Source: Gemmobacter lanyuensis (GTDB taxonomy: Bacteria > Pseudomonadota > Alphaproteobacteria > Rhodobacterales > Rhodobacteraceae). From it: a stretch of 64,000 nucleotides of DNA. The stretch lies in the NCBI RefSeq assembly GCF_014652355.1, contig NZ_BMYQ01000010.1, positions 1 through 64,000 on the forward strand, read 5' to 3'. Under the pieces are notes generated by a model. It was not told the origin of the DNA and did no database searches. It was given only the letters and a program-made list of their open reading frames with translations. Position 1 is the first letter of the stretch. Each line of letters starts with the position of its first letter. The position numbers and the translations under genes were made by a program. Below are positions 8,723 to 43,527 of the stretch, one piece after another.

Positions 8723-8900
8723 CGCCTGTGTCTAGAGGTTTGTTTTCGCATCACAAAGCACTTTCGGAATGCGAAAGTACTCGAGACTGGAGGTACACGC
8801 CGGACAGGCCATGGTCCGGCTTGAGAAAATCCTACGATTTCAAAGAACTGGCGCGATGCGAACCTCGGCGGGTTCTCAAGCACGATGCAGGTTCGCAGGA
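8723..8900 (-). promoter_or_regulatory. CRISPR leader between cas2 and the array
   Basis: The 178 bases between the cas2 stop (8901) and the first repeat (8722) contain no ORF of their own. They include a hairpin, ACTTTCG (8760-8766) with CGAAAGT (8772-8778), about 40 bases from the first repeat. The position and lack of coding signal make this the leader that guides spacer insertion and may hold the array promoter. No clear -10/-35 pair stood out. Confidence 0.65.
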
Positions 8901-10871: not shown

Positions 10872-10874
10872 GGC

Positions 10875-13567: not shown

Positions 13568-14262
13568 CTGCGTACCTCGGGGCTATCCACGGCGGGCACC
13601 TCCATCACGCCGTCGCGCAGGGTGGCGCGGAAGAACAGCGAGGGACGGCCGGGGGCGGCGTGGTCGATGTCCCACAGCATGAAGCCCAGATCGCGCGGGG
13701 TGCCAAAGCCGTGCTCGGCGTTGCGTGTGGCCTCGTCGCGGTCGGGTAGGGGGGCACCGGGGGGCACGAGTTCAAAATGCGCGGCGAATTCGCGGGTGCC
13801 AAGACAGGGCTGGTGAAAGCATTGCCCGCGTTCGGCCCGGCGCTTGAAGATATCCAGATGCTTGCCTTCGCTATCCTCGGCCCCAGCCTTTGGCGTCAGC
13901 TCAAAATGCGCCTCGATCAGATAACGGGGCTGCACCAGTACGGTCGAGGCGCGCTGCTGGCGGTCCTCATCGACCAAAAGTTGCAGGCCTTCCAGATCGC
14001 CCCGGTTCATCGCCTGCTTGATCTTGCCTGCCGGGGCCTTGTGGCCCACCTCATTGCGGCGGATCGACTGAAAGCGGATCGGATTCAGCACATGGATACG
14101 GTCGATGCGCCAGACAATCGCCGGTTTCCAGTGGATCGCCTCAAGAATGCCCCGCGCGGCGGACGGAGTCATCAGATCATAGGAAACCCGTTCAACCTTC
14201 ATTTCAGGTCGGGTGAACAGCCCATGCTGCCCCCAGACCTTTAATCGAACACCGTAAGCCAT
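13564..14262 (-). CDS. cas5: Type I-C crRNA-processing protein Cas5 (Cas5d/Cas5c), 232 aa
   Basis: The N-terminus AYGVRLKVWGQHGLFTRPEMKVERVSYD is the Cas5d RAMP start, followed by the conserved TPSAARGILEAIHWKPAI segment. In I-C systems, which lack Cas6, this protein cleaves the pre-crRNA repeats and caps the crRNA 5' handle. The C-terminus overlaps cas8c by four bases. Upstream, 105 bases separate it from the cas3 stop, so the Cascade genes may have a secondary promoter. Confidence 0.95.
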   Translation of the reverse strand: MAYGVRLKVWGQHGLFTRPEMKVERVSYDLMTPSAARGILEAIHWKPAIVWRIDRIHVLNPIRFQSIRRNEVGHKAPAGKIKQAMNRGDLEGLQLLVDEDRQQRASTVLVQPRYLIEAHFELTPKAGAEDSEGKHLDIFKRRAERGQCFHQPCLGTREFAAHFELVPPGAPLPDRDEATRNAEHGFGTPRDLGFMLWDIDHAAPGRPSLFFRATLRDGVMEVPAVDSPEVRR

Positions 14263-14367
14263 TCTTACACCTCAATATCAGGCCAGATTAATCTTCCAGT
14301 AGAATCTGGCAAGAGTAATATTCCCTTGGATTGTGTGTCCTGCCCGATCGAAAGATTGGGCGCCGCT

Positions 14368-16596: not shown

Positions 16597-16720
16597 TTGC
16601 TGCACCTGATGATGGCGATGTAAGATTATGAAATACAATCAAAGGATGATTTTCGCGCAAAGGCAACGGGAATACTTCGGCACAATTATAATACATAATC
16701 TTCATTCTCCGCTTTTCACG
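16597..16720 (-). promoter_or_regulatory. AT-rich region upstream of cas3, probable cas promoter
   Basis: Immediately upstream of cas3 the composition becomes AT-rich, with a TATAAT hexamer on the minus strand near 16688-16693. I could not find a convincing -35 at the right spacing, so the exact promoter is open. This is the only non-coding space before the cas operon. Confidence 0.35.
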
Positions 16721-28938: not shown

Positions 28939-30417
28939 ATGTCGGCACTGCTGGAGGTCACGGATCTCGTCAAAAGCTTTTCAGGCGTGCCGGCTCTGCG
29001 GGACGGCCGGTTCCGCTTGGAACCGGGATCGGTCCATGCGCTTTGCGGCGGGAACGGTGCCGGGAAATCGACCTTCCTCAAGATTGTCATGGGCATCCAA
29101 CCGCGCGACGGCGGCATGATCCGCAGACGGGGCCAGGAGGTCAGCTTTGCCAGCCCGGCCGAGGCACTTCAGAACGGCATTGCCATCGTCGAACAGGAAC
29201 TCTCGCCCGTTCCGGCCATGTCGGTGGCCGAGAATATCTATCTGGGCCGCGAACCCGTGGGGCGCTTTGGCCGCATTGATTTCGCCACGCTGAACCGCCA
29301 GACGCAGAACTTGCTGGATGGCTTCGGCTTTGCAATCCGGGCCACCGATCTGATGATGGACCTGACCGTCGCGCAGACCCAGTTGGTCGAGATCGCCAAG
29401 GCGCTGAGCTATGACGCCGAGGTCATCATTCTGGATGAACCCACCTCGGCCCTGGGCGAGGCCGAGGCCGAACACCTCTTTGCCGCCATCGCCACCCTGA
29501 AGGCGCGCGGCAAGGGCGTGATCTATGTCAGCCACCGCCTGTCCGAGATCTTTTCCATCGCAGACAGCTATACCGTGTTCCGCGACGGTCGCTTCGTCCA
29601 GACCGGCGCCATGGCCGACGTCACCAAGGATCAGCTGATCCAGCTCATCGTCGGCCGCCCCCTGACCGAGGAATTCATCAAGGAAAACACCCCAGGAACG
29701 GAAATCGTGCTTGAGGTGCGCGGCCTGTCTGCGGCGCGCGGAGTGCGGGATGTGTCTTTCACGGCACGACGCGGCGAAATCCTGGGCCTTTACGGCCTGA
29801 TGGGCGCGGGCCGGACCGAGATTTTTGATCGCCTCTTTGGCCTTTCAGATGTGACCGGGGGCGAAATTTTTGTGGAAGGCGCCCCCGTCGCGCTCCGCAG
29901 CCCGGCCGAGGCGATTGCCGCAGGCATCGCCTATGTGACGGAAGACCGCAAAGGCTCGGGCCTCGTGCTGTCAGGCAGCGTGCGCGACAACCTGTGTCTG
30001 GCCACGCTGGGGGCATTGTCCCGGGCGGGCGTGATGAATGGCACCGCGGAAGGGGGCGCCGCCGCGCGCATGATTGAGGCACTGAAGATCAAGACGGCAG
30101 GCGACGCACTGGGTGTGGCCCAGCTCTCGGGCGGCAATCAGCAGAAGGTCGTCTTGGGCAAATGGTTTCTGACCGCGCCACGCATTCTTCTGCTGGATGA
30201 GCCGACGCGCGGGGTCGATGTGGGCGCCAAGCGGGAAATCTACCGCGTGATGTCGGACTTCGCGCGGGGCGGAGGGACGGTGCTGATGGTGTCATCGGAA
30301 ACCGATGAAATGCTGGGCATGGCGGATCGGGTCATCGTGCTGAAGAACGGCCGGCTGGCCGGCGAACTGGGCCGGGACGCGCTCTCGGCGGAAGGATTGC
30401 TGCATCTGGCCGCATGA
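28939..30417 (+). CDS. Sugar ABC transporter ATP-binding protein (RbsA/XylG type), 492 aa
   Basis: Two fused ABC domains: the first has GGNGAGKSTF and LDEPTSALGEAE. The second has an altered P-loop region (LYGLMGAGRTEIF), QLSGGNQQKVVLGKW and LLLDEPTRGVDVG. This two-headed design is specific to CUT2 transporters of ribose-, xylose- or polyol-type sugars. The start has GGGAGG upstream. It is followed 21-27 bases later by the permease and then the binding protein, so the uptake system is complete. Confidence 0.95.
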   Translation: MSALLEVTDLVKSFSGVPALRDGRFRLEPGSVHALCGGNGAGKSTFLKIVMGIQPRDGGMIRRRGQEVSFASPAEALQNGIAIVEQELSPVPAMSVAENIYLGREPVGRFGRIDFATLNRQTQNLLDGFGFAIRATDLMMDLTVAQTQLVEIAKALSYDAEVIILDEPTSALGEAEAEHLFAAIATLKARGKGVIYVSHRLSEIFSIADSYTVFRDGRFVQTGAMADVTKDQLIQLIVGRPLTEEFIKENTPGTEIVLEVRGLSAARGVRDVSFTARRGEILGLYGLMGAGRTEIFDRLFGLSDVTGGEIFVEGAPVALRSPAEAIAAGIAYVTEDRKGSGLVLSGSVRDNLCLATLGALSRAGVMNGTAEGGAAARMIEALKIKTAGDALGVAQLSGGNQQKVVLGKWFLTAPRILLLDEPTRGVDVGAKREIYRVMSDFARGGGTVLMVSSETDEMLGMADRVIVLKNGRLAGELGRDALSAEGLLHLAA

Positions 30418-30444
30418 CGCCAGAGGCAGGGGGAGGATATGGAT

Positions 30445-31440
30445 ATGGAACTGAAGGCTAAGACACCGGCGGGCGGCAGCCTGTCGGGCGGGCAGATCGT
30501 GCAAAGATACGGCATCGTCATCGCACTTCTGCTGGCCTGCCTGACGCTGACCCTGATCAGCGACAACTTTCTGACCACGCGCAACGTGCTGAACGTGCTG
30601 CGGCAGACCTCGATCAACGGGGTTCTGGCCATTGGCATGACCTTTGTCATCCTGACGCGGGGCATTGATCTGTCGGTGGGATCGGTCGTGGCGCTGAGCG
30701 GGGTGGTCGCGGCCTCATTCGCCACCACATCATCAGCGGGCTTCATTCCCGGCGCCCCCTGGCCTGCGGGCATCGCCATTCTGATCGGGCTTGCCGTGGG
30801 GATGGGCTGCGGTGCGGTGTCGGGCGTGATCGTGGCACGCTATCGGGTTCCGGCCTTTGTCGCCACCCTGGGCATGCTGTCGGCCGCGCGCGGGCTGACG
30901 CTGCTCTATTCCGGGGGCCGTCCGATCCCCGCGCTGAGCGAGACCTTCCGCTGGATCGGAACCGGCAGCATCCTGGGCATTCCCGTGCCGATCTTCCTGC
31001 TGCTGGGCACCTTCGCGCTGGCGCATTTCGTGCTGACCCAGACCCGCTTTGGCCGCCATGTCTATGCCGTGGGCGGCAACCCGCATGCAGCCAAGGTATC
31101 GGGGCTGCCCGTGAACCGGATCCGGTTCCTCGTCTATGTGATCTCGGGGGCGCTGGCGGGGCTTGCGGGGATGATCCTTGCCGCGCGGACTGGGTCGGCG
31201 CTGCCGCAGGCGGGCATAGCCTATGAACTGGATGCCATCGCCGCAGTGGTGATCGGCGGCACCAGCCTTGCAGGCGGTGTGGGGCGGGTTTCCGGCACGC
31301 TGATCGGGGCGCTGCTCATTGGCGTGATGAACAACGGGCTCGATCTGATGGGGGTCGAATCCTACTACCAGCAGGTGATCAAGGGCTTCCTGATCGTGGC
31401 GGCCGTGATGCTGGACCAATCCAAGAACAAGCAGGACTGA
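30445..31440 (+). CDS. Sugar ABC transporter permease (RbsC type), 331 aa
   Basis: The ATG at 30445 is favoured because GGGAGG is eight bases upstream. ATG 30439 is only two bases from it. The protein is very hydrophobic with about 8-10 transmembrane segments and the CUT2 signatures ILTRGIDLSVGSVVALSG and YAVGGNPHAAKVSGL. Two copies would form the membrane channel driven by the upstream ATPase. Confidence 0.94.
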   Translation: MELKAKTPAGGSLSGGQIVQRYGIVIALLLACLTLTLISDNFLTTRNVLNVLRQTSINGVLAIGMTFVILTRGIDLSVGSVVALSGVVAASFATTSSAGFIPGAPWPAGIAILIGLAVGMGCGAVSGVIVARYRVPAFVATLGMLSAARGLTLLYSGGRPIPALSETFRWIGTGSILGIPVPIFLLLGTFALAHFVLTQTRFGRHVYAVGGNPHAAKVSGLPVNRIRFLVYVISGALAGLAGMILAARTGSALPQAGIAYELDAIAAVVIGGTSLAGGVGRVSGTLIGALLIGVMNNGLDLMGVESYYQQVIKGFLIVAAVMLDQSKNKQD

Positions 31441-31514
31441 CGTCCCCGGCTTGCCGGCGCGGGCCTGTCGCCCGCTGCCAAAACCACGCGTGATCCATGG
31501 GAGGAAAGACGCAA

Positions 31515-32498
31515 ATGACCAAGACGATGTTGATGATGGCAACCGCCTTGACGATGGTGGCCGGCGTTGCGGGCGCACAGGACAAGCCCAAGATCGGGGC
31601 GGCTGTCTATGGCCTGAATGCAGAATTCATGCAGATCTGGGCCGAGGCCGCCGAAAACCACCCCGCCGTGAAACAGGGGCTGGTGGAACTGACCGTCTTT
31701 GACGGCCGCTATGACGCGCTGGTCCAGCAGGAACAGTTCGAAACGATGATCACCGAGGGCTACAAGGCCATCGTCTTCGTGCCGATCGACATTGAAGCGG
31801 GCGCCGCCGCCGTCGATGCCGCCGCTGCCGCGGGCATCCCGGTCTTCGGGTCGAACACCCGCGTGAACAGCGACAAGCTGACGGCCTATGTCGGGTCAGA
31901 TGATGTGCAGTCGGGCTATATGGAAGCCAAGCATGTGCTGGACAAGATCGGCTGCAAGGGGAATGTCGTCATCATCGAAGGGCCCATCGGCCAGTCGGCG
32001 CAGATCCAGCGTCTGGAAGGCAATATGAAGGCGCTGGCCGAATGCCCCGATGTGAAGGTGCTGGAACAGCAGACCGCGAACTGGAGCCGCGCCGAGGCCC
32101 AAACCCTGATGGAAAACTGGCTGACCGCCCATCCGGGCGAGATTCAGGGGATCATCGGCCAGAATGATGAAATGGCCCTTGGTGCCATCGAAGCGGTCAA
32201 GGCCGCGGGTCTAAAGCCCACCGACTTTGCCATTGCGGGCATCGACGGCGTGACCGACGCGCTGCTGGCGGTCAAGGCGGGCGACATGGCCTCGATCCTG
32301 CAGGACGGTCATGCCCAGGCACAGGGCGCGCTGGATCTGGCGATTGCCGCCGTCCTGCCCGACTATCAGCCGATGTCCGAAATCTGGACCCAATACCCGG
32401 ACATGCCCTGGGCCGACGGCAAGGCCAAGGAATACAACGTGCCGTGGACGCCGGTGACGGCTGAAAACGTGGATGCGCTGCTGGCCACCCGCCAGTAA
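31515..32498 (+). CDS. Sugar ABC transporter periplasmic binding protein, 327 aa
   Basis: Start at ATG 31515, with GGAGGAAAG upstream. A signal peptide (MTKTMLMMATALTMVAGVAGA) precedes a type I periplasmic-binding fold with VFVPIDIEAGAAAVDAAAAA, GQNDEMALGAIEAVKAAG and IAGIDGVTDAL. It is of the ribose/rhizopine/erythritol class by layout, and the ligand cannot be read from sequence. A strong GC hairpin follows the gene, as is common where the binding protein is made in excess. Confidence 0.94.
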   Translation: MTKTMLMMATALTMVAGVAGAQDKPKIGAAVYGLNAEFMQIWAEAAENHPAVKQGLVELTVFDGRYDALVQQEQFETMITEGYKAIVFVPIDIEAGAAAVDAAAAAGIPVFGSNTRVNSDKLTAYVGSDDVQSGYMEAKHVLDKIGCKGNVVIIEGPIGQSAQIQRLEGNMKALAECPDVKVLEQQTANWSRAEAQTLMENWLTAHPGEIQGIIGQNDEMALGAIEAVKAAGLKPTDFAIAGIDGVTDALLAVKAGDMASILQDGHAQAQGALDLAIAAVLPDYQPMSEIWTQYPDMPWADGKAKEYNVPWTPVTAENVDALLATRQ

Positions 32499-32514
32499 CC
32501 GCCACCAACGGCAA

Positions 32515-32559
32515 CCCCCGGGGCCGGGATCCTCCTCGCTCCCGTCCCGGCCCCGGGGG
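32515..32559 (+). terminator. Long GC hairpin after the binding-protein gene
   Basis: CCCCCGGGGCCGGGA (32515-32529) pairs perfectly over 15 bp with TCCCGGCCCCGGGGG (32545-32559), loop 15 bases, then CCTTCCCTT. It sits between the binding-protein gene and the SDR gene. It could attenuate transcription or protect the upstream mRNA, uncoupling transporter levels from the catabolic genes. Confidence 0.65.
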
Positions 32560-32595
32560 CCTTCCCTTGGGGCAGCAATTTAAAGGAACAGGAAC

Positions 32596-33357
32596 ATGGT
32601 CACTCCGACTTTCGACTTTTCACTTGCCGGCAAGGTGGCCGTTGTGACCGGCGCGGCCTCGGGCATTGGCGCGGCGATTGCTGCGGCCTTTGCCGCCAAG
32701 GGCGCGCGCGTGGCGCTGCTGGACATGAACGGAGATGCCGCCGCTGCCCATGCGGCCACCCTGCCGGGCGCAGCAGGCGCCTTTGCCTGCGACGTGACCG
32801 ATGCGGCCAGCGTGGCCGGGGCCGTGCAGTCGGTGCAGGCGGCCTTCGGTGCGATCGACATTCTTGTGAACAGCGCAGGCATCGTGGACCTTGCCCCGGC
32901 CGAGGATCTGGGCGCCACCGCCTGGAACCGCACCCTTGCCGTGAACCTGACCGGCAGCTTCCTGATGGCGCAGGCCGTGGGTCGCGTGATGATCGCGGCC
33001 GGCAAGGGCGGGCGGATCGTCAACCTTGCCTCGCAGGCCGGGTCGGTGGCGATTGAGGGCCATGTCGCCTATTGCGCGTCAAAATTCGGGATCATCGGGG
33101 TGACCAAGACCCTGGCGCTGGAATGGGGGCGCCACGGGATCACGGTCAATTCGATCTCGCCCACGGTGGTGCTGACCGATCTGGGCCGCAAGGCCTGGGA
33201 CGGGCCGAAGGGCGAAGCGATGAAGGCGCAGATCCCCACGGGCCGCTTTGCCGAACCCCATGAAATCGCCTCGGCAGCGGTGTTCCTGGCCTCGGACGAG
33301 GCCGCAATGATCAATGGCGCCGACCTGCTGGTCGATGGCGGCTATACGGTGAAGTGA
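32596..33357 (+). CDS. SDR-family sugar/polyol dehydrogenase, 253 aa
   Basis: Classical short-chain dehydrogenase: TGAASGIG cofactor loop, NSAG, the serine in LASQAGS, and YCASK with catalytic Tyr and Lys. AAGGAAC precedes the ATG. NAD(P)-linked oxidation of a polyol or reduced sugar to a ketose is the likely reaction, because kinases of the dihydroxyacetone family follow directly (8 bases to dhaK). The exact substrate is unknown. Confidence 0.92.
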   Translation: MVTPTFDFSLAGKVAVVTGAASGIGAAIAAAFAAKGARVALLDMNGDAAAAHAATLPGAAGAFACDVTDAASVAGAVQSVQAAFGAIDILVNSAGIVDLAPAEDLGATAWNRTLAVNLTGSFLMAQAVGRVMIAAGKGGRIVNLASQAGSVAIEGHVAYCASKFGIIGVTKTLALEWGRHGITVNSISPTVVLTDLGRKAWDGPKGEAMKAQIPTGRFAEPHEIASAAVFLASDEAAMINGADLLVDGGYTVK

Positions 33358-33364
33358 GACGGAT

Positions 33365-34357
33365 ATGCAAAGATTCATCAACAACCCCGACGATCTGGTC
33401 GATGAAACCGTGGCTGGTTTCGTCAAGGCGCACCGGGATCTGGTGCATCTGGACCCGGCCAATCCGCGTGTCGTGGTGTCTAACGCAGCACCGCAACCGG
33501 GCCGCGTCGGCATTGTGACCGGCGGCGGATCTGGGCATGAGCCAGCCTTCATCGGCTATGCCGGGCGCAACATGGTCGATGCAGTGGCGGTGGGCGAGCT
33601 GTTTTCGTCCCCCACGGCCAAAAGCTTTGCCGATGCGATCCGGGCGGCCGATGGCGGGGCCGGGGTTGCGGTGCTTTACGGCAATTACGCGGGCGACAAC
33701 ATGAACGTCAAAATGGCGGCGCGCATGGTGGCCAAGGACGGGATCGAGGTGGCCACCGTCGTCGCCAATGATGATGTCTGTTCTGCCCCGGCCGCGGAGC
33801 GCGCCAAACGCCGCGGCGTCGCGGGCGAGATCTTCATGTGGAAGATCGGTGGCGCCAAGGCGGCCCAGGGCGCGCCCCTGTCCGAGGTTCAGGCCGCCGC
33901 GCAAAAGGCGATCGACGCCTGCCGGTCGGTCGGGGTCGGGCTTGGCCCCTGCACCCTGCCCGGCGTGGGGCATCCGAACTTTCAGATCGAACCGGGCACG
34001 ATGGAGGTGGGTATCGGCCACCACGGCGAACCGGGCACGCGGGTCGAGGCGCTGAAGACCGCAAGTGAGGTGGCCGACGACATGCTCCGCATCGTGATGG
34101 AGGATCACGCCCTGCCGCCGGGGTCGGAGGTTGCGGTGCTGGTCTCGGGTCTTGGGGCCACGCCGGTGAACGAACTTTATGTGCTTTACGACCGGATCGA
34201 GGCCGGGCTGACCGCCAAGGGCATGACGGTCCACAAGGCGCTGGTCGGCAATTACTTCACCTCGCTGGAAATGGTCGGGGCAACGCTGACCGTCATGGCG
34301 CTGGATGGGGAACTGAAGGCGTTGCTCGATCTTGAAACTGCATCCCCCGCATTGTGA
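33365..34357 (+). CDS. dhaK: Dihydroxyacetone-kinase-family subunit DhaK, 330 aa
   Basis: The substrate-binding subunit is recognisable from GGGSGHEPAFIGYAGRNMVD, LYGNYAGDNMNVKMA, DDVCSAP and the catalytic histidine in EVGIGHHGEPG, which binds the ketose carbonyl covalently. Length is standard. It needs a DhaL partner, which follows 10 bases later. Homologues phosphorylate dihydroxyacetone or four-carbon ketoses such as erythruloses, so the substrate should not be assumed to be dihydroxyacetone. Confidence 0.94.
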   Translation: MQRFINNPDDLVDETVAGFVKAHRDLVHLDPANPRVVVSNAAPQPGRVGIVTGGGSGHEPAFIGYAGRNMVDAVAVGELFSSPTAKSFADAIRAADGGAGVAVLYGNYAGDNMNVKMAARMVAKDGIEVATVVANDDVCSAPAAERAKRRGVAGEIFMWKIGGAKAAQGAPLSEVQAAAQKAIDACRSVGVGLGPCTLPGVGHPNFQIEPGTMEVGIGHHGEPGTRVEALKTASEVADDMLRIVMEDHALPPGSEVAVLVSGLGATPVNELYVLYDRIEAGLTAKGMTVHKALVGNYFTSLEMVGATLTVMALDGELKALLDLETASPAL

Positions 34358-34367
34358 GAGGGCGAAG

Positions 34368-35003
34368 ATGACCGCAATCCAGACCGCAAATCAGGCCAGC
34401 ATCGTCGAAGAGCTGGCCGAGGTGATCGTCGCCAACAAGGCCTATCTGTCTGAAATTGATGGCAAGATCGGCGACGGTGACCACGGCATCAATATGGCCA
34501 AGGGCTTTGGCCGCGCGGCGGAACGCATCCACGGCAAGGAGATGACGCTGGATGCTGCGCTGCTGGTGCTGTCGGATGTGCTGATGTCTGAAATCGGCGG
34601 GTCGATGGGGCCGCTGTATGGCCTGATGTTTGAAGACATGGCCGGGGCGCTGGCCGGGCGCGACACGCTGGATGCGGCGGCCTTTTCCGCCATGCTGAAC
34701 GCGGGTCTGGAAGGCGTGCGCGGCGTCGGCTCGGCCGAGGTGGGCGACAAGACGCTGATGGACACGCTGGTCCCTGCAGTTGGCGCCTTTGACGCGGCGC
34801 AGGATCAGGGTTTTGCCGCCGCCCTTCAGGCCATGGTGGCGGCGGCAGAGGCAGGGCGCGACAGCACCCTCGATCTGGTCGCGCGGATCGGCCGTGCCAG
34901 CCGTCTGGGCGAACGGTCGCGCGGGGTGCTGGATGCGGGCGCGACCTCCTGCTGCCTGATCCTGACGACCCTTGCCGGGTCGATCCAGCGCCGCATGGCA
35001 TGA
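34368..35003 (+). CDS. dhaL: Dihydroxyacetone-kinase-family subunit DhaL, 211 aa
   Basis: Start at ATG 34368 after the dhaK stop. The nucleotide/metal motif KIGDGDHGINMAKG supplies the aspartates that hold two Mg ions, and GGSMGPLYGLMF and GDKTLMDTLVPA complete the ATP-binding barrel. It could accept phosphate from ATP directly or via a PTS protein; no PTS gene is nearby, which favours ATP. It overlaps the next gene by four bases (ATGA). Confidence 0.94.
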   Translation: MTAIQTANQASIVEELAEVIVANKAYLSEIDGKIGDGDHGINMAKGFGRAAERIHGKEMTLDAALLVLSDVLMSEIGGSMGPLYGLMFEDMAGALAGRDTLDAAAFSAMLNAGLEGVRGVGSAEVGDKTLMDTLVPAVGAFDAAQDQGFAAALQAMVAAAEAGRDSTLDLVARIGRASRLGERSRGVLDAGATSCCLILTTLAGSIQRRMA

Positions 35004-35716
35004 CCGCCCTGCACCCGCCCGCTTCGGCCCTTGCGTCGGGGCGGGCTTTGGGGCCAATTGATGGGATGACCGCATTGGACAGCCATCAGATCGTTGATCT
35101 TTTCCGCGTGATCGCCCGCCGCCTGGCCGAGGCGCGGGCCGAGCTTGGCGCGCTGGACGGCGCCATCGGCGATGCCGACCACGGCAATTCCATGGCCGAT
35201 GGCTTTGCCGCCGTGGTGCGCGCCAGCGCCGAGGCCGCGACGCGCGGCAGCGATGTCGGCGATCTTTTCGTCGTGGCAGGCCGGTCGTTTCTGAATGCGG
35301 TGGGGGCCACCACAGGCCCGCTTTATGCCAGCGCCCTGTTGCGCGCGGGCCAAAGGTTCGCGGGGCAGAAGACACTGGCCATTGCGGATCTGCCCGACCT
35401 GCTGGCCGCCTTTGCCGCCGGAATCTCCGACCGCGGCAAGGCGCGCCCCGGTGACAAGACGATGATGGATGTCTGGGGCCCCGCCGCCCGCGCCGCCGAA
35501 CAGCCCGGCCCGCCGCGCGACCGGATGGCGCGCGCCTTGCGCGCCGCCGAAGATGGGCGCGATGCGACGCGGACCATGGTCGCCTCGGTCGGGCGGGCCG
35601 CGCGTCTGGGCGAACGCAGCCTTGGCCATGTCGATCCCGGCGCCGCTTCGGCGGTGATCGTGATTGCCGCCCTGCAAGAGGGGCTGGCCCATCATCTCGC
35701 GCAGGATCGCCCCTGA
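35000..35716 (+). CDS. Second DhaL-like subunit, 238 aa
   Basis: The frame begins at ATG 35000 overlapping the previous stop. A second ATG at 35066 is a possible start of the conserved part. The DhaL motifs recur (AIGDADHGNSMADG, VGATTGPLYASAL, GDKTMMDVWGPA) but with clear divergence from the upstream copy, so this is not a recent duplication. With the DhaK domain in the next gene it probably forms a second kinase, or it serves as a sensor partner for the fused regulator. Confidence 0.9.
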   Translation: MTALHPPASALASGRALGPIDGMTALDSHQIVDLFRVIARRLAEARAELGALDGAIGDADHGNSMADGFAAVVRASAEAATRGSDVGDLFVVAGRSFLNAVGATTGPLYASALLRAGQRFAGQKTLAIADLPDLLAAFAAGISDRGKARPGDKTMMDVWGPAARAAEQPGPPRDRMARALRAAEDGRDATRTMVASVGRAARLGERSLGHVDPGAASAVIVIAALQEGLAHHLAQDRP

Positions 35717-37770
35717 TGGCGCCGCGTCAACCCCACAAGACAGCCGACGCGGACACCCTAACCCCCATGCCGCTGCGCTATGGGGATGATCCGCTGCTTT
35801 GGGCGGCTTGGCTTTATTATGAAGAGGGCCTGACCCAAAGCGACATCGCCGAGAAGATGGGCCTGTCGCGCGCCTCGGTGAATGCCTATCTGGCCGATGC
35901 CCGCACCCGCGGGATCGTCAATATCGAAATCGCACCGGAAAAGTTCCGCGCCCTGTCAATTGCCCAGGCGCTGCGCGATCATTTCAACCTGCAAGACTGC
36001 CTCATCATCCCGACCGAGGGGGATGAACGTCCGCTGATCGCGCGCCTTGGCGCGGCGGGGGCGCAGGTGCTGCGCCGCTTTGTGAAATCGGGCGATACGC
36101 TGGCGGTAACCTGGGGGCGCACGGTGCTGGCCCTGGCCGAAGCGTTGGATCATCCGGGGTTGCAGGATGTGCGCGTGGTGCAGGCCACCGGCGGCACAAC
36201 CGCGAAAATCCCCTGGACGCCCGAGGCCTGCGCTTCGCGTCTGGCCGATGCGCTGAAGGCGCGCAGCATCCCGATTTCTGCGCCGGCCATCGTCACCTCG
36301 GCCGAGATGCGTGCCATGCTGATGCAGGAACCCGTGCTGGCCGAACAGCTGGCCATTCTGGCGGAGGCCGACCGCATCGTCATGGGCATCTCCTCGCTGC
36401 GGCCGGAAAGCACCATCCACAGCAGCGGCTTTCTGGATGGCGGGGTGCAGCATGCGCATTATCAGGATGCTGTCGGCAGCATCGTGGGCCGCTTTATCGG
36501 CGCCCGCGGCGAACCCGTGATCGGCCCGATGCAGGAACGCACCATCGGGATCGAGCTGGAGGCCCTGCGCCGCATCCCCCAGCGCATCGCGGTGGCGGGG
36601 GGCGTGGACAAGGTTCCCGCCATTCTGGCCGCGCTGCGCGGGGGCTATGTCAATGTACTGGTGACCGATGTGGTCACCGGGCGGGGCATCCTGACCGCCG
36701 AAGGCTATCGTGACACTCCGCGCCGGTCGCCGCCTGCCGACCCAGCACCGCTGACCGCGCGCAGCCATGTGAAAAAGCTCATCAACGCCCCGCAGGATGC
36801 GGTGGATGAGGCGCTTCGCGGTGCGCTTCTGGCGCATGAGGATCTGATTGCCGCCCTGCCCGACAGCCCGCGCGCCATCCGCGCGCTGGACGGGCCACGC
36901 CCCGGCAAGGTGGGCCTCGTGATTGGCGGCGGCGCCGGGCATGAGCCGGGCTTCTGGGGCTATGTCGGGCGCGGTCTCGCCGATGCGGCAGCAGTGGGGA
37001 ACCTCTTCGCCTCGCCGCCGCCGGGGCCGATTTTGGCCGCGACGCAGGCGGTGCAGGGGGGCGCCGGGGTTCTTTACATCTATGGGAACTTCTCTGGCGA
37101 CGTGATGAATTTCGATATGGCCGCCGAGATTGCCAATGCCGAGGGCATTCCGGTGCGATCGGTGGTGACGACGGACGATATCGCCTCCTCGCCGATCGAA
37201 TCCCGGGCCGCGCGGCGCGGGGTGGCGGGCAATGTGTTCATCTTCAAGATCGCGGGCGCCGCGGCAGATCGCATGATGCCGCTTGAGGCCTGCGAGGCCG
37301 TGGTGCGCCGCGCCAATGCCCGCACCTATACGATGGGCCTTGCGCTGGAACCCGGAAGCCTTCTGGAAACGCGCCGCCCCAGCTTTGATCTGGGCCCACA
37401 TGACATGGAGCTGGGCGTAGGCGTGCATGGCGAACCCGGGGTGGTGCGCCAAAAGCTCGCCTCGGCCGATGAAAGCGCAGATCTGCTGCTGGACCGGATT
37501 CTGACAGAGATGGCCCCGCAAGAGGGCGACAGGGTCGCGGTTCTGGTCAATTCGCTGGGCAGCACCCCGGCGATGGAGCTTTACATCATCCTGCGGCGCG
37601 TACGCCAAAGGCTGAAGGCGCGCGGGATCATCGTCCACAAAAGCCTGGTCGGGCCGTATTACACCTCGCTCGACATGGCGGGGGTGTCGCTCAGCCTGCT
37701 GCATCTGGATGCGGAACTTGCGACCCTGCTGGATGCCCCCTGTCGGTCGGCGGCCCTGACCTTACCCTGA
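35716..37770 (+). CDS. SorC-type sugar-responsive regulator fused to a DhaK domain, 684 aa
   Basis: Residues about 25-70 are a DNA-binding head (GLTQSDIAEKMGLSRASVNA). Residues 75-335 match the SorC/DeoR-like sugar-phosphate sensor (TWGRTVLALAEAL, VTDVVTGRGIL). After a proline-rich linker, residues about 350-680 are a full DhaK (GGGAGHEPGFWGYVGRG, YGNFSGDVMNFDMA, and catalytic-type His in LGVGVHGEPG). The gene overlaps the second dhaL stop by one base. The fusion could couple kinase state or ketose binding to control of the operon. Fusions of this kind are annotated in other alphaproteobacteria, but the mechanism is not established as far as I know. Confidence 0.92.
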   Translation: MAPRQPHKTADADTLTPMPLRYGDDPLLWAAWLYYEEGLTQSDIAEKMGLSRASVNAYLADARTRGIVNIEIAPEKFRALSIAQALRDHFNLQDCLIIPTEGDERPLIARLGAAGAQVLRRFVKSGDTLAVTWGRTVLALAEALDHPGLQDVRVVQATGGTTAKIPWTPEACASRLADALKARSIPISAPAIVTSAEMRAMLMQEPVLAEQLAILAEADRIVMGISSLRPESTIHSSGFLDGGVQHAHYQDAVGSIVGRFIGARGEPVIGPMQERTIGIELEALRRIPQRIAVAGGVDKVPAILAALRGGYVNVLVTDVVTGRGILTAEGYRDTPRRSPPADPAPLTARSHVKKLINAPQDAVDEALRGALLAHEDLIAALPDSPRAIRALDGPRPGKVGLVIGGGAGHEPGFWGYVGRGLADAAAVGNLFASPPPGPILAATQAVQGGAGVLYIYGNFSGDVMNFDMAAEIANAEGIPVRSVVTTDDIASSPIESRAARRGVAGNVFIFKIAGAAADRMMPLEACEAVVRRANARTYTMGLALEPGSLLETRRPSFDLGPHDMELGVGVHGEPGVVRQKLASADESADLLLDRILTEMAPQEGDRVAVLVNSLGSTPAMELYIILRRVRQRLKARGIIVHKSLVGPYYTSLDMAGVSLSLLHLDAELATLLDAPCRSAALTLP

Positions 37771-40700
37771 CGCGGCGAGGATTTTCTTCACCAGTCCTGC
37801 CAGCAGGGGCACGATCTCGGCCGAGAAATACTGGCCGTGGCCGCAGGGCAGCGTATCGACACTATGGGCAGGGTACATCTTTTCCCAGTCCGCATGCGGA
37901 TCACAACCCGGGCGCAGAAAAGGGTTGCGGTGGCTTGAGGCGCCGAAGATATGGGCCACCGGCACCGCAAGGGGGCCGTGGAAATCCGGGTCGACCGCCA
38001 AAAGGACGGGCACCTCACGGCCGCGGGCCAAAAGCCTGCGCGCGACGCCCTTGGCGATATCGGCCCCCTGACAATTCCCCGCAAGCCGGATGGCGCCCTC
38101 GGGCCAAAGGGTGTCGATCCGGTCGGCATAGGCATCAGCCAGGTCCTCGATCGCCCGGTCATAGCGGCTTGCCAGAAGGTTGCCCGAACGCAAGGCATGC
38201 AAGGACACCCCGGGCGCGCCCAGAATGTCCAATGCCCGCGCCAGGGCAACAGGTTCATGGATGCTCTGACAGATCCACAAGAGCGGGGGCGCATCCGTCT
38301 CGGGCCGGAAGGTATGGATCAGATCCCCCAGCGGGCTGCCATGTTCAGACCACGGGCGCACCATCTCGCGCTGCGCCGCAATGATCGGGGCGGGATCCTT
38401 GCGACCGGGTTTCTGATAGCCGAACCGCGCAGCCAGCACGGCGGTTTCCGGCGCGATCGCTGCATCTGCGGGCAGACCATGGCCAAGCCCTGCCCGGCCT
38501 GGATCAATGCCTTTGCCGCGCCAGAAACTCGGATCGCCCGCGCCGCGACGGCTGCCACGCAGCCCCGTCGACATCCGTTTTTCAGGCTGGTCATGAACAT
38601 CGAGCATGGCGGGAACGAAGGGCCGCTTGGCAAATTTGCACAGGCGGGTAAGCCACTCGTCCGGGTCAATGACCAGATCTTCGAAATGGATCGTCAGAAC
38701 CCGGCGGGGGTCAATGTTCTGAACAAACGCCGAAATATTGCAGTAGCTCTCGGTCCAGACGGCCTCGGCAAGGGCGCGCGGGTGATCTACCCTGCCCTGC
38801 ATCCAGACCTGATCCAATCCCGCCGCGACATGGGACCGGATCGACTCGACCGGATTGCGGCGCAACACGACGTAAAGGGGTTTGCGAAACCGGGTCTCAA
38901 GCGCCCCGAGCGCCGAAGGCGACAGGGCGGTATGGGGCGATTTCTCGACGATCCGGCGATCTCCGACCGCATGCTGCAGGTGGTCATAGACCCGCTCTAC
39001 CGACAGGCGCGCGGCGATGGCGCGGTCAATCCACGCGCGGGCGCTGCCCTCATCCTCGCCGGTCGCTGACATGATCGCCTGCACCAGACCATCCTGAAAG
39101 AACCGGAATTTCCCGGAATGGACGCGGGCCCAATCGTCCATCCGCTCATGTGTCAGCAGCCGCAGTTCGGGTGGCGAGAAAAATCCCGGATGCCCCGCAA
39201 GGGCCGTGCGCAACAGGGTGGACCCGGCACGCGGCGCACTGAGAATGATTAATGGGCTCGTGTCGCTGCGATCCTGGGTGCGGGGGGCGATCACCGGACC
39301 ACGCACATCCATCATCTGTGCATCGCGGGCAGCGGCGGGTCGGGCTGCTGCCACCGCCAGGGGGAAAAGGCGGATCGTCATATCGGGAAAGCGTTCGCGG
39401 ATCGCCAAAGCAAGGCCCGTGGCCGTCGGCGCATCAAAGAGAAGCGGCAGGTGAACCGTGACGCCCAGATGCTGTTCGATACGCAGCATGGTTTCGGTGG
39501 CATCAAGGCTTGTTCCACCAGCATCAAAGAAATTCTCAGCCGGGCCAAGGTCGGGGCGGCGCAGCATGCTGCGGAACAACTCCAGCATCCAAGCTTCGAA
39601 GGGGTCGAGGGCGACATCGTCGGGGCCACTGGAATGGGACAGCTTGGCCGCGAGGGTGGACGCAAGGTGGCGGCGATTGATCTTGCCGTTCGCGTCCAGA
39701 GGCAACTTCTCCATCAGGAAAATCTTTGCCGGCACCTTGGCGCGCGGCAGATGCCGTGCCGCTTCGGCACGAATATCCTCGGGTCGCAAGGGTGCGCCCT
39801 CATCCGGCACAACGGCCGCGGCGATGGTTTCGCCCAGAGTGTCATGCGGCAGACCAAAGCACAGACAGGCCTGAACGCCCGGAATACGGCGGATGGCGGC
39901 CTCGATCTCGGCCGGGGCGACCGTCTCGCCGCCCATGTTGATCCGGTCGCCGATCCGGCCAAGGACATGCAGGAAGCCATCGGCATCGATCCGCCCCATG
40001 TCCCCCGTCCGGAACCAACCGTCATGAAAGACAACGGATCCCGCCGCGTCGCCCACATAGCCTGGCATCACAGTCCGACCGCGGACCCGGATTTCACCGG
40101 CCCCGTCCGGGGCGCAGGGCTGATTATCCGGGCCAAAGACCGCAAGCTCATCGGCCACGGGTCGACCGACGGTGCCCTGCCGGGGGTCGCGCGCAGGCAC
40201 ACCCGCGATGATCAGCGCCTCTGACATGCCATAGGCTTCCAGCAGGGGGGCGCCGAAGGCCGTACTGATTTCGGCGCGCAGGCCATCATCCAGCGCGGCA
40301 GATCCACAACGCAGGAACCGCAGCCGGGGCTGGTGCAACGAGAGACCACCTTGCCGCGCACGACGCAGGACATCTGCGTAAATCGCAGGAGAGGTCGACA
40401 CCCAAGTTGGCTGTGCCGCCCGATACCAATCGACAAAATCGGCAGCCGTATATTCCCCCGGCATGATGCTGCAGGCCGCCGCGACCCAAGGTAGATACAC
40501 CCCCGACACCAACCCATGCACGTGGTTCAGCTGCATGACATTCAGCGTCGCTTCGCCCGGCGCAAGGTCAAGTCCCCGTGCAGCCCGAGAGGTGGCAAGG
40601 GCCACCGCCTGATGCCGCACCGGCACGATCTTGGGCAGGCCGGTCGAGCCGCTGGTCGTCAGGTAGAATGCCACATCCTCGGCTTCGGCATGGCGATGCC

Positions 40701-41166
40701 GCGGCGCAACCGGCCCGGCGCGGCCCTCAATTTCCCACGCCCATGGCCCGACAGACTGGGGCGTCAGCACGGCCGCTCCCGTGGCCGCAATTGCTTCGGC
40801 ACAGTTGCCAAGGCCTTGGGCATCCGCAATTACCGCCCGAACATCCAGGGCCCGGAAGGCCATGGTGACGACGCCCGCCGACATTGACGGCGCGATGGGA
40901 AGGCAACGACAGCTGCCTGCCAAAGCCGTGATCCAGATCGCCGCATCGGCCCGGTTGGAGATCGAAATGGCCAACGCCTCACCCGCCGCGACCCCTGCGG
41001 CTGCAACCTGTCGGCGCAACCGCTCGGATAGCGCGTGCAACGCAGCAAAGGTCAGGTGCGGCCGGGACAGATCCCTGACTGCGGCACGTCCACCATGGTG
41101 ATCAGCCATGCTTTCCAGCTGGTCCAGCGGCAGAAGCTGTTCGGCGGGGGCGAACTCGTCGGTCAT
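37762..41166 (-). CDS. NRPS-like protein: adenylation, carrier, sulfotransferase, Cys-type hydrolase, 1134 aa
   Basis: Start at ATG 41166 (MTDEFAPAEQ). ATG 41178 is possible. An AMP-binding domain (about 1-500) has LTTSGSTGLPKIV, EAYGMSE, GWFRTGDMG and PLDANGKINRR. A carrier domain has FFDAGGTSLD with the phosphopantetheine serine near residue 550. From about 645, LSAPRAGSTLLRTAL and VVLRRNPVESIRSHV are the PAPS-binding parts of a sulfotransferase. The end (about 945-1134) is alpha/beta-hydrolase-like with Cys in AGNCQGAD where serine is usual, Asp in AVDPDFHG and His in CGHGQYFS. It would activate an acid, tether it, sulfonate it and release it. There is no condensation domain. The product is unknown. 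Confidence 0.85.
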   Translation of the reverse strand: MTDEFAPAEQLLPLDQLESMADHHGGRAAVRDLSRPHLTFAALHALSERLRRQVAAAGVAAGEALAISISNRADAAIWITALAGSCRCLPIAPSMSAGVVTMAFRALDVRAVIADAQGLGNCAEAIAATGAAVLTPQSVGPWAWEIEGRAGPVAPRHRHAEAEDVAFYLTTSGSTGLPKIVPVRHQAVALATSRAARGLDLAPGEATLNVMQLNHVHGLVSGVYLPWVAAACSIMPGEYTAADFVDWYRAAQPTWVSTSPAIYADVLRRARQGGLSLHQPRLRFLRCGSAALDDGLRAEISTAFGAPLLEAYGMSEALIIAGVPARDPRQGTVGRPVADELAVFGPDNQPCAPDGAGEIRVRGRTVMPGYVGDAAGSVVFHDGWFRTGDMGRIDADGFLHVLGRIGDRINMGGETVAPAEIEAAIRRIPGVQACLCFGLPHDTLGETIAAAVVPDEGAPLRPEDIRAEAARHLPRAKVPAKIFLMEKLPLDANGKINRRHLASTLAAKLSHSSGPDDVALDPFEAWMLELFRSMLRRPDLGPAENFFDAGGTSLDATETMLRIEQHLGVTVHLPLLFDAPTATGLALAIRERFPDMTIRLFPLAVAAARPAAARDAQMMDVRGPVIAPRTQDRSDTSPLIILSAPRAGSTLLRTALAGHPGFFSPPELRLLTHERMDDWARVHSGKFRFFQDGLVQAIMSATGEDEGSARAWIDRAIAARLSVERVYDHLQHAVGDRRIVEKSPHTALSPSALGALETRFRKPLYVVLRRNPVESIRSHVAAGLDQVWMQGRVDHPRALAEAVWTESYCNISAFVQNIDPRRVLTIHFEDLVIDPDEWLTRLCKFAKRPFVPAMLDVHDQPEKRMSTGLRGSRRGAGDPSFWRGKGIDPGRAGLGHGLPADAAIAPETAVLAARFGYQKPGRKDPAPIIAAQREMVRPWSEHGSPLGDLIHTFRPETDAPPLLWICQSIHEPVALARALDILGAPGVSLHALRSGNLLASRYDRAIEDLADAYADRIDTLWPEGAIRLAGNCQGADIAKGVARRLLARGREVPVLLAVDPDFHGPLAVPVAHIFGASSHRNPFLRPGCDPHADWEKMYPAHSVDTLPCGHGQYFSAEIVPLLAGLVKKILAASG

Positions 41167-41188
41167 GTCAGGTCTCATCCAGAATGCG

Positions 41189-42775
41189 TCAGGCAGCACC
41201 CGCAGCCAGAGGCGGCAGATGCACGTCGATCACGAAAGGGCCGGACCCGGAACAGGCATCTTGCAGCGCAGGACCAAGCGCATCGGTCCTGTCCACACGG
41301 CACCCCCGCGCGCCAAGAACGCGGGCAAAGGCAGACCAGTCCAGCCGGTCATCCTCACCAAAATGCCCCATCATCATCGGGTCGTCTGCCAGCCGCGCGA
41401 GGCTGGCAAAACCGGCATTGTTCGCCACAAGGTAGATCACCTGTGCCCCAAACCGGACCGCCGTCGCGATTTCCTGTGCCATTTGGCGCATGCAACCATC
41501 GCCGGTCACACAGAGGACAGGACGGCCCAGTGTCAACGCAGCCCCGATTGCCGCCGCGATGGCCCACCCCATCGGTGCATGTTCCGCACTTGAATGCACC
41601 ATCCCGCCGTGGCCCCCCTCCCAAAGACGCGCCAGGCTGCGCCGATGCGTCCCCGCATCCACAAAGACCGGCACCGCTGCGGGCAGATGTTGCTGTGCCG
41701 CAGCAATGAAGGCTTCAAACGGGTATGCAGGGTCCGGGCCGGGACGGTGGCAGGCCCCCCGTGGCTGTGAAGATGTCGGATGGGTCTGTAGACGGTCGGC
41801 CAATCCATTAAGGGCGCTGTCAAGATCGGGGGTCAGCACCTCTGGGCCGATCCATCGGGGGTCCGCGGCCCCCGGAACGTCGAGGCGCGCAAGGGCCCCG
41901 GCCCTTGCCGCCCAATCCACCCCGTCGCGTTGCCCGGGTGCGCCCCCGATGAACAGGATCAGCCCGGCTTCTGCCACCACGCGGTCTGCCGCCGCCAGAC
42001 CGCCAAGGCCGAAGTGACCCAGATAGTTCGGGGTGCGATCCGGCAAAAGCGCAGATGCCGCAACCGTGGCCACGATGGGGCCGTTCCACCCGTCCAAGAG
42101 GCGCAAAAACCCCGGCTTTTCACGCAGCAAGGCAGCGCGGGGTCCAAGCGCCAGGACCGGCACCTCGGCCTTGGCGTGAAGGGCCGCGATCAGGTCAAGG
42201 TCAGCATCCATATTCTGATCAAGGCGGAGGCAGAGGTCGCCACCGGGCAGGTCCGTGAAGCGTCTGGCCTGTAGGTCAGCGGGTACCATCAGATGGGCCG
42301 GAAGGCCGCGAGCCAGACGATCACGGGCTGCCCACCAGCCCGCGCCATCGGGATCATCCTTCAAGACCCGGCTGTCGCCGCAGGCAAGGGCCATCATCGC
42401 GCCATCGCGCGACCCCTCGGGGCCAGTGTCCTGAAACTGGGAAAAGGTCGAGGCCACGGACGATGGCGTGCCGGTCAGGTAGAGGACCGGGGTCCGCTCC
42501 AACCGGGCATTGATCGCAGAAGGCAGGGCCTGGGCCATCCCCGGCCCACCGCCTGCCAGGAAGACGGCCGGGCCACCCGTCACACGCGCTGCTCCTTCCG
42601 CCATGAACCCGGCGCCAATCTCGGAGACCGTGACGACCGCGCGGGGCATCTGGCGTGCCGACAGGGCGCGGCACAATCCTTCGACCTGGCCCGCCGGCAC
42701 CGTAAAGACATGCCGCACGCCCAGATCCTGCAGCCGGTCCCATAACCAGTCCGACAGGGTTGCGCCCGTCATGCG
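41189..42775 (-). CDS. ThDP-dependent decarboxylase/acetolactate-synthase-like enzyme, 528 aa
   Basis: Start at ATG 42775, overlapping the SDR stop by seven bases. The much longer frame is out-of-frame SDR sequence. The N-terminal part has VTVSEIGAGFMAEGAARVTG, with the glutamate that activates the cofactor. The C-terminal part has VTGDGCMRQMAQE and NNAGFASL, the GDG...NN thiamine-diphosphate/Mg motif. Three-domain order is normal. It would decarboxylate a 2-oxo acid or form a C-C bond. Lying between an SDR and an NRPS-like gene, it probably makes or trims the building block that the NRPS-like enzyme loads. Confidence 0.9.
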   Translation of the reverse strand, partial: RMTGATLSDWLWDRLQDLGVRHVFTVPAGQVEGLCRALSARQMPRAVVTVSEIGAGFMAEGAARVTGGPAVFLAGGGPGMAQALPSAINARLERTPVLYLTGTPSSVASTFSQFQDTGPEGSRDGAMMALACGDSRVLKDDPDGAGWWAARDRLARGLPAHLMVPADLQARRFTDLPGGDLCLRLDQNMDADLDLIAALHAKAEVPVLALGPRAALLREKPGFLRLLDGWNGPIVATVAASALLPDRTPNYLGHFGLGGLAAADRVVAEAGLILFIGGAPGQRDGVDWAARAGALARLDVPGAADPRWIGPEVLTPDLDSALNGLADRLQTHPTSSQPRGACHRPGPDPAYPFEAFIAAAQQHLPAAVPVFVDAGTHRRSLARLWEGGHGGMVHSSAEHAPMGWAIAAAIGAALTLGRPVLCVTGDGCMRQMAQEIATAVRFGAQVIYLVANNAGFASLARLADDPMMMGHFGEDDRLDWSAFARVLGARGCRVDRTDALGPALQDACSGSGPFVIDVHLPPLAAGAA

Positions 42776-43527
42776 CGAAAGCTTCCGCCATTCACGTCGA
42801 GGCAGGCGCCAGAGACATAGCCGCTCCCGTCTTGCGCGAAGAAGCACACCGCATCGGCCACCTCTTGCGGCGTGCCGAAACGGCCCACGGGGACATCTTG
42901 CAACAAGGTGCGTTGCTCTTCGGGACTGCGCGCATCCCATTTCTGACGGATCCGATCCGTCAGGATCACGCCGGGTGCGACCGTGTTGACGGTAATGCCA
43001 GAAGGCCCAAGTTCGCGGGAGAGTTGCCGCCCGAGACCGATCAACCCGGCCTTTGCAGCGGCATAATGGGGGCCGGACAGCCGGCCGGCATCGCGGCCCG
43101 CAATCGAAGCGATATTGATGATGCGGCCGAATCCGGCAGCTTTCATCATCGGGACTACGGCGCGGCACAGCGCAAAGGCCGCCTGCAGATTGACATCAAC
43201 CACCCGCGCCAGATCGGCATCCTCCACATCCTCAAGCCGGTAGGCCTGACTGCCACCCCCTGCATTGTTGACAAGGATGTCGACCGTGCCAAAGCGGTCC
43301 GTCACCGCAGCAACCAGGGCCTTGCGGGCATCGGGATCGGTCACATCGCCGCCCAGACCAAGGGTCAGACCCGGCCAGCGATCTTCCAGCTGGCGCTGCG
43401 CGGCGACAAGACGGTCCGGGTTTCGCCCCAGAAAGCCTACCGCCACGCCGCGCTCCGCAAAAGCCTCGACACAGGCCAAGCCAATACCTGCCGTGCCCCC
43501 GGTCACAATCGCCGTCCGCCTCTGCAT
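42769..43527 (-). CDS. SDR-family oxidoreductase, 252 aa
   Basis: TGGTAGIG cofactor loop, NNAGGG, serine in IASIAGRD and the YAAAK catalytic pair (HYAAAKAGLIG) are all present, and the C-terminal GGDVTDPDAR and VNGGSFRA segments are typical. It is the first gene of the three-gene minus-strand set and is coupled to the ThDP enzyme. It likely reduces or oxidises a carbonyl in the same pathway. It resembles FabG-type reductases, but a fatty-acid role is unlikely given its neighbours. Confidence 0.92.
   Translation of the reverse strand: MQRRTAIVTGGTAGIGLACVEAFAERGVAVGFLGRNPDRLVAAQRQLEDRWPGLTLGLGGDVTDPDARKALVAAVTDRFGTVDILVNNAGGGSQAYRLEDVEDADLARVVDVNLQAAFALCRAVVPMMKAAGFGRIINIASIAGRDAGRLSGPHYAAAKAGLIGLGRQLSRELGPSGITVNTVAPGVILTDRIRQKWDARSPEEQRTLLQDVPVGRFGTPQEVADAVCFFAQDGSGYVSGACLDVNGGSFRA

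Follow-up and report, generated by a model that had tools for sequence, protein, structure and literature searches.

A putative three-gene cassette for carrier-bound sulfation of a small hydroxy acid in Gemmobacter lanyuensis

The window analyzed here is a stretch of 64,000 nt from Gemmobacter lanyuensis (contig NZ_BMYQ01000010.1, positions 1 to 64,000), and its subject is a cassette of three genes encoding a short-chain dehydrogenase/reductase (SDR), a thiamine diphosphate (ThDP)-dependent enzyme and a large protein with adenylation (A), peptidyl carrier protein (PCP), sulfotransferase (ST) and thioesterase (TE) domains. The cassette is real, apparently intact, very rare and plausibly a complete small pathway. 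In the preferred reading, which is given a probability of about 0.5, the three genes form a self-contained accessory pathway in which ThDP-dependent carboligation and SDR reduction would yield a hydroxy or dihydroxy acid, which would then be loaded onto the carrier, O-sulfated there and released by a Cys-type thioesterase. The domain order and motifs of the large protein, the family of its ST, the oxalyl-CoA type of its A domain, the co-occurrence of the ThDP gene (2/295 family genomes) and the tight gene spacing, all read from the sequence, argue for this pathway. It suggests a carrier-bound sulfation that is uncoupled from polyketide or peptide assembly, shrunk to three genes and small enough for in vitro reconstitution. 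The features of the cassette are as follows.

42769..43527, minus strand: SDR, FabG-like NAD(P)H-dependent reductase, candidate ketoreductase (252 aa; Pfam adh_short_C2, 3.2e-56)
41189..42772, minus strand: ThDP-dependent enzyme of acetolactate-synthase/CsmA type, candidate carboligase (527 aa; Pfam TPP_enzyme N, M and C domains)
37762..41166, minus strand: A-PCP-ST-TE megaprotein (1134 aa)
39682..41109, minus strand: adenylation domain, residues 20-495, acyl/oxalyl-CoA-ligase type (Pfam; 5ie0, 6.7e-71)
39409..39591, minus strand: carrier (PCP) domain, residues 526-586, phosphopantetheine Ser553 (Pfam PP-binding, 2.5e-11)
38392..39282, minus strand: sulfotransferase domain, residues 629-925, CurM/olefin-synthase family (4gox, 2.6e-41; 4gbm, 1.5e-40)
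37765..38376, minus strand: short Cys-type thioesterase domain, residues 931-1134 (Pfam Thioesterase, 2.6e-07)
38071-38073, minus strand: TE nucleophile Cys1032 (Asn-Cys-Gln motif)

The first-pass annotation had described three coupled minus-strand genes at 37762-43527, in the order SDR, ThDP-dependent enzyme and A-carrier-ST-hydrolase protein, and the coordinates, order and Pfam domains agree with that description. As it had also stated, no ketosynthase (KS), acyltransferase (AT) or condensation domain was found in the three proteins (Pfam, E ≤ 0.001). Its suggestion that the set could make, load, sulfonate and release one small acid is plausible from the domains present, and its failure to match a named product was repeated, given that neither an A-PCP-ST-TE protein nor a named product for that architecture was found in the literature searched (open-licence papers only).

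The SDR stop codon and the ThDP start codon overlap (ATGA). The large gene starts at the ATG at 41166, 22 nt past the ThDP stop, and ends at 37762, where its last 9 nt overlap those of a plus-strand gene (35716-37770) that converges on it; alternative in-frame starts at ATG 41178 and GTG 41199 are possible. Pfam placed AMP-binding (20-370, 1.6e-45), AMP-binding_C (420-495), PP-binding (526-586), Sulfotransfer_3 (638-850, 6.6e-25) and Thioesterase (1004-1059, 2.6e-07) along the protein, which corresponds to a single-module protein like a nonribosomal peptide synthetase (NRPS), with A and carrier domains and a terminal release domain and without a condensation domain. The motif residues that were checked are present, namely Ser553 of the carrier (invariant in 3/3 aligned proteins), Lys495 of the A domain, a 5' loop (SAPRAGSTLLR) of the type that binds 3'-phosphoadenosine-5'-phosphosulfate (PAPS), the 3' motif Arg770/Ser778, and Cys1032/Asp1059/His1110 of the TE; we take these to be the catalytic residues of their domains. 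The domain order and motifs of the large protein are far beyond chance.

When the full protein was searched against 295 family genomes, 66 matched at E ≤ 1e-60, and all four domains were found only in two, the own genome and G133; the other matches, among those listed, were confined to the A domain and reached the carrier at most. The G133 homologue is 51% identical and keeps all checked motif residues (PAPS-type loop SAPRCGSTLLR), so that the loss of PAPS-type motifs or carrier serine, for which the first-pass annotation had told readers to look, was not seen in this one close homologue. The ThDP protein matched 2/295 family genomes at 1e-45, the same two, and its gene lies directly upstream of the large gene in both, with an overlap of 8 nt between the two reading frames in G133. 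The ST-TE half matched 19/390 order genomes (E ≤ 1e-12), 9/398 phylum genomes (1e-15), 1/385 class genomes (1e-22) and 1/11 genus genomes (1e-15), these samples and that of the family overlapping one another. In the order and phylum samples the whole query was covered only in the own genome, and the remaining order matches cover mainly the ST or mainly the TE part. A wider scan of genome contigs returned one locus (L062, from the metagenome-assembled genome Rhodobacter sp. MASabin.1) with a sequence identical to the G133 contig, and an earlier scan of the same collection found no relative; the productive scan rested on only two 8-residue patterns and gives no more than a loose bound on rarity in that collection. 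No plasmid matched the ThDP protein at E ≤ 1e-30, and in the phage collection none of the 20 records with matches covered 80% of the large protein. A degenerate or misassembled fusion without function would fit the presence of the protein in only two known genomes, but the frames are full-length and free of stops, the motifs are kept at 51% identity and the two genomes belong to different genera, and such an origin is scarcely credible.

The best PDB matches of the ST domain were the STs of olefin synthase (4gox, 2.6e-41) and CurM (4gbm, 1.5e-40), followed by tyrosine sulfotransferases at 5.6e-06, and from these matches the domain is assigned to the CurM/olefin-synthase ST family, with its PAPS-type motifs kept. 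In a tree of 13 ST domains, which also held those of CurM and olefin synthase, of an Agrobacterium vitis plasmid protein, of free carrier-ST-like proteins and one from within an NRPS, the window ST and its homologue formed a branch of their own (support 0.997), while the deep branching was not resolved (0.044). The earlier comparison of this terminus with polyketide chain terminators such as CurM is thus borne out for the ST (1.5e-40) and fails for the terminal hydrolase, which is a short Cys-TE. The view that the arrangement is known from polyketide terminators was also too narrow: carrier-linked STs occur in NRPSs, as in excerpts describing cyanopeptolin (PMC2533009) and dysinosin (PMC6520454), within another NRPS (L105) and in the separate A-PCP-ST-TE protein of A. 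vitis. A split version was seen at L104:5817-8870, where a carrier-like domain with an ST, a TE whose nucleophile is Cys (GMCLGG) and an open reading frame (ORF) resembling a phosphopantetheinyl transferase stand in a row next to exopolysaccharide-export-like ORFs (annotated by eye except for the ST).

The terminal domain matched only positions 46-101 of the 226-position Pfam Thioesterase profile. Its PDB matches were weak (NocB, 5e-4; surfactin TE, 0.0029; Acinetobacter NRPS, 0.0045), and the CurM TE was absent among the 9 PDB sequences at E ≤ 0.01. The nucleophile motif is GNCQG, with Cys1032, in a short form of the domain. Relatives were collected by phmmer (E ≤ 1e-5) from the order genomes, plasmids, the own genome and G133, and their alignment has 20 rows, among them the window protein and its homologue; the rows were gathered by similarity, and their likeness is partly a matter of selection. 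Asn-Cys-Gln (NCQ) stands at the nucleophile in all 20, and the distance from Cys to HG..F is 77-83 in all 20, compared with 156 and 158 in the TEs of A. vitis and L097, respectively. A spacing this short leaves no room for the lid that usually lies between strands 6 and 7. An acid is found at about Cys+27 in 19 of the 20 (Asn in L045) and the His likewise in 19 (Tyr in L064); L106, outside the alignment, fits as well, with NCQ and a distance of 78. The window TE shares the NCQ motif, the acid at about Cys+27 and an HG.(Y/F)F-like stretch at Cys+77 to 83. On these features, the terminal hydrolase is classed as a short Cys-thioesterase without room for a lid, and not as the decarboxylating type of CurM.

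These data bear on CurM/olefin-synthase chemistry, in which beta-sulfation, hydrolysis and decarboxylative loss of sulfate would give a small alkene or enol. An ST of the CurM/olefin-synthase family and a FabG-like SDR that could furnish the beta-hydroxyl speak for it, but the TE is not of CurM type by its PDB matches, its nucleophile is Cys, its lid region is absent, and the TEs that follow a CurM-like ST in two cyanobacterial plasmid polyketide synthases (PKSs) carry GHSMGA with Ser. Because the terminal hydrolase is not a CurM-type TE, decarboxylative alkene formation could not simply be carried over to the window protein, and this outcome is considered quite unlikely.

The NCQ thioesterases are poorly caught by the available models. 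No NCBIfam match above cut-off was obtained for three members scanned as free or cut-out domains, and Pfam Thioesterase was above cut-off for the window protein, L063 and L106, below it for G133, L064 and L066, and absent for L065. The TE occurs in C-A-PCP-TE (L063), C-A-PCP-TE-ST-TPR (L064) and Mur ligase-A-PCP-TE (L066, L106) architectures and as a free-standing protein. The ST of L064 (Methylomagnum) gave no match at E ≤ 1e-5 in the ST comparison, so the STs that accompany NCQ thioesterases do not all belong to the CurM family. Eight neighborhoods (L065, L107, L110-L115) were examined by eye, with Pfam confirmation on part of the ORFs: an AMP-binding protein stood near the NCQ TE in 6/8 (6/6 confirmed by Pfam), a P450 was confirmed in four (L107, L110, L112, L115), a carrier in L110 and a carbamoyltransferase in L112, and L065 has an annotated carrier and carbamoyl transferase. 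None of these four kinds of protein was seen in the L111 neighborhood. The own genome holds a second NCQ thioesterase (L107:10248-11432, contig C1), which adjoins an AMP-binding protein, a P450 and a glycosyltransferase-TylF protein. Thioesterases of this type have AMP-binding proteins and P450s as neighbors in several Rhodobacterales genomes. The group looks like one of release enzymes for activated or carrier-bound groups.

Cys-type alpha/beta hydrolases such as SyrC and CmaE shuttle aminoacyl groups between carriers. The window TE might similarly be an acyltransferase, which would hand the sulfated acyl group of the carrier over to a distinct acceptor molecule (sugar, amine or lipid) instead of hydrolyzing it. 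Among its Cys-TE relatives, L063 and L064 do have annotated glycosyltransferases in their loci and L107 has the glycosyltransferase-TylF protein, and AMP-binding proteins, P450s and a carbamoyltransferase are also found near such relatives; the three-gene cassette itself, however, has no acceptor gene or glycosyltransferase, which leaves transfer a rather doubtful alternative. Ring-forming release of the ObiF1/SulM kind, in which the Cys-TE would close a beta-lactone or an N-sulfonated lactam, is very unlikely. The TEs of SulM and ObiF1 have Cys nucleophiles and close four-membered rings, and N-sulfonation precedes closure in sulfazecin, but their triad Asp lies after strand beta7 and the SulM motif is Gln-Cys-Asn (PMC11298585, in excerpt). 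According to the sequence and a weak model, the acid of the window TE aligns after beta6 (D1059, Cys+27; D/E in 19/20) in an Asn-Cys-Gln context, and with an A domain that does not belong to the amino-acid type, no amine is evident for N-sulfonation. A monobactam-like lactam was rejected on the differences in motif, acid position and A-domain type.

The closest solved relatives of the A domain are oxalate-CoA ligases (5ie0, 6.7e-71), a branch of ligases acting on small acids, followed by malonyl-CoA synthetase (1e-38); in NCBIfam it matched the FadD7 family at 5.8e-85, below the cut-off of that model. At the column that we take to hold the Asp binding the alpha-amine in amino-acid-activating domains, His217 is found in the window protein and its homologue, in place of the Asp seen in an amino-acid NRPS module and in the aligned A. 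vitis protein. Ser289 of the plant oxalyl-CoA synthetase is kept, and the column of its His319, which we take to be oxalate-binding, is Ile in the window protein and Gln in the homologue; oxalate is therefore disfavored as a substrate. The A domain should, by these residues, load a small carboxylic acid without an alpha-amine. No GA/FkbH loading domain was present among the Pfam matches, the A domain standing in its place.

The nearest solved relatives of the ThDP enzyme are CsmA (8x3z, 6.3e-36) and catabolic acetolactate synthases (1.1e-32), and its N-terminal Glu column and GDG...NN stretch align with those of CsmA. None of the NCBIfam matches listed (best 25 of 51) reached its cut-off, and the likeness to acetolactate synthase is a family-level similarity that makes pyruvate carboligation putative. 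The best solved relatives of the SDR are FabG proteins (7.6e-46), with a weak match only to the ketoreductase (KR) profile of Pfam. Acetolactate-type carboligases make alpha-hydroxy-beta-keto acids, and a FabG-like SDR could convert these to the beta-hydroxy form that CurM-type STs accept. By analogy, we infer that the ThDP enzyme and SDR may play the part that KS and KR have ahead of the ST in CurM. A route to glycerate by glyoxylate carboligase (Gcl) and tartronate-semialdehyde reductase, attractive beside the precedents for sulfated glycerate, was nevertheless rejected: Gcl was not among the 25 of 51 NCBIfam matches listed, and the ThDP enzyme keeps the Glu that Gcl presumably lacks.

Taken together, the preferred pathway would run in five steps. 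The ThDP enzyme would join a 2-oxo acid, for example pyruvate, with a second 2-oxo acid or an aldehyde to an alpha-hydroxy-beta-keto acid or acyloin, and the SDR would reduce the keto group, free or carrier-bound, to a beta-hydroxyl. The A domain would adenylate the resulting small non-amino acid and load the PCP, the ST would use PAPS to sulfonate the hydroxyl of the acyl-PCP, and the lidless Cys-thioesterase would accept the acyl chain and release a free sulfated hydroxy acid; alternatively, the sulfate might be lost by ring closure or by elimination. PAPS and holo-PCP could be supplied from the own genome, which has one match to the APS kinase family and two to the phosphopantetheinyl transferase family above cut-off. 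A bolder version, which we regard as unlikely, would make the carrier sulfate a leaving group and not a decoration: starting from a dihydroxy acid made by the ThDP enzyme, the lidless NCQ thioesterase would release a small reactive compound (an epoxy acid, a beta-lactone or an enol-derived ketone), and NCQ thioesterases would be a new class of release enzymes serving many unexplored one-module Rhodobacterales pathways.

Several points weigh against the preferred pathway. The substrates of all domains are putative. A search for the same four-domain order and its neighbors, as proposed in the first-pass annotation, yielded one other genome with the ThDP gene upstream, but the 7.8-kb contig of G133 ends inside the ThDP gene and an SDR neighbor there is not confirmable; 16 SDR matches were found elsewhere in that genome, and even the best of them shares only 41% identity. 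With two known members, the evidence from conservation is thin. The proposed check of pocket residues pointed to a non-amino-acid type and away from oxalate, and singled out no other substrate. Modelling of the ST and hydrolase, likewise proposed, gave a poor AlphaFold result for ST-TE (two sequences; mean pLDDT 41.8, pTM 0.37), from which the succession of elements in the better-scored TE core alone was taken, as weak support. Since one of the 20 TE rows lacks the acid and one the His, activity cannot be assumed across the group. Finally, no transporter or regulator was seen to be visibly part of the set.

Homology to the genus relatives G297 and G302 crosses the convergent SorC-DhaK gene and ends at window positions 37773 and 37758, and no ST-TE match was found in either at E ≤ 1e-15. 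The opposite flank (a cobW-like gene and a desaturase) matches 10/11 genus genomes, the own included, and in the drafts of G297 and G302 lies on contigs other than the SorC-DhaK contig. Because the homology of these relatives ends at the convergent gene and the other flank is kept elsewhere, the cassette is judged to be accessory; the exact empty site is not demonstrable in draft genomes. The cassette does not stand out in GC content (0.64-0.67 per kb, within the 0.61-0.69 of its surroundings). The convergent gene, DhaK fused to a SorC-like sugar-binding regulator, is the last of an apparent operon at 28939-37770, in which genes judged by eye to encode a sugar ABC transporter and an SDR are followed by DhaK and DhaL family genes. 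A role of the cassette in this dihydroxyacetone-kinase operon was rejected, the operon being convergent and the G297/G302 homology stopping at its last gene. Further away, the window carries a CRISPR array at 6733-8743, made up of about 30 repeats with a 32-nt core that start 64-71 nt apart; ORFs resembling type I-C cas genes (by eye) follow at about 9200-16640.

Among known systems, the CurM terminus of curacin A and the cyanobacterial olefin synthase resemble the window protein in having an ST of the same family between a carrier and a terminal alpha/beta hydrolase; they differ in that the window protein has no KS or AT, its carrier is loaded by an A domain and its TE is of the short Cys type. 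Neither the decarboxylating Ser-TE nor the PKS-delivered beta-hydroxyacyl chain (no KS/AT) of a CurM-type terminator is found here. According to an excerpt of PMC6274090, ST-TE yields a terminal alkene in CurM, and the same has been proposed for HlaB. The closest solved relative of the A domain, oxalyl-CoA synthetase 5ie0, is not matched in architecture, since the window A domain is fused to a PCP, and one oxalate-site His is replaced by Ile/Gln. In the Oci and DysB NRPSs, as described in excerpts of PMC2533009 and PMC6520454, an ST is likewise tied to a small hydroxy acid at the start of the NRPS: Planktothrix cyanopeptolin synthetases contain an ST and a glyceric-acid domain, and the ST and FkbH domains of DysB are assigned to sulfated glyceric acid. 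There, a GA/FkbH domain brings the acid, which is extended to a peptide, whereas in the window protein an A domain would load it and the TE would end the chain after one unit; this likeness is drawn from the published descriptions.

In sulfazecin biosynthesis the ST is a separate protein. SulM and SulN are alike in that sulfonation (on N) precedes release by the Cys-TE in which SulM ends, and they differ in their peptide substrate, in the position of the triad acid and in the QCN motif, compared with NCQ in the window protein (PMC11298585, in excerpt). Of the SulM/ObiF1 features, the window TE has the Cys nucleophile (Cys1032) and not the triad Asp after beta7. The same four-domain order is found in a protein encoded by the A. 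vitis plasmid pRvVAT039a (L040:13674-17321), the only one of 72,556 plasmid records covering 80% of that protein at E ≤ 1e-100. It differs from the window protein in its sequence (28% identity overall), its amino-acid-type A domain, its Ser TE with the usual spacing and its neighbors, which are cysDN and an ectB-annotated aminotransferase instead of ThDP and SDR genes. As the A. vitis protein shows, this four-domain order also occurs with A and TE domains of different types.

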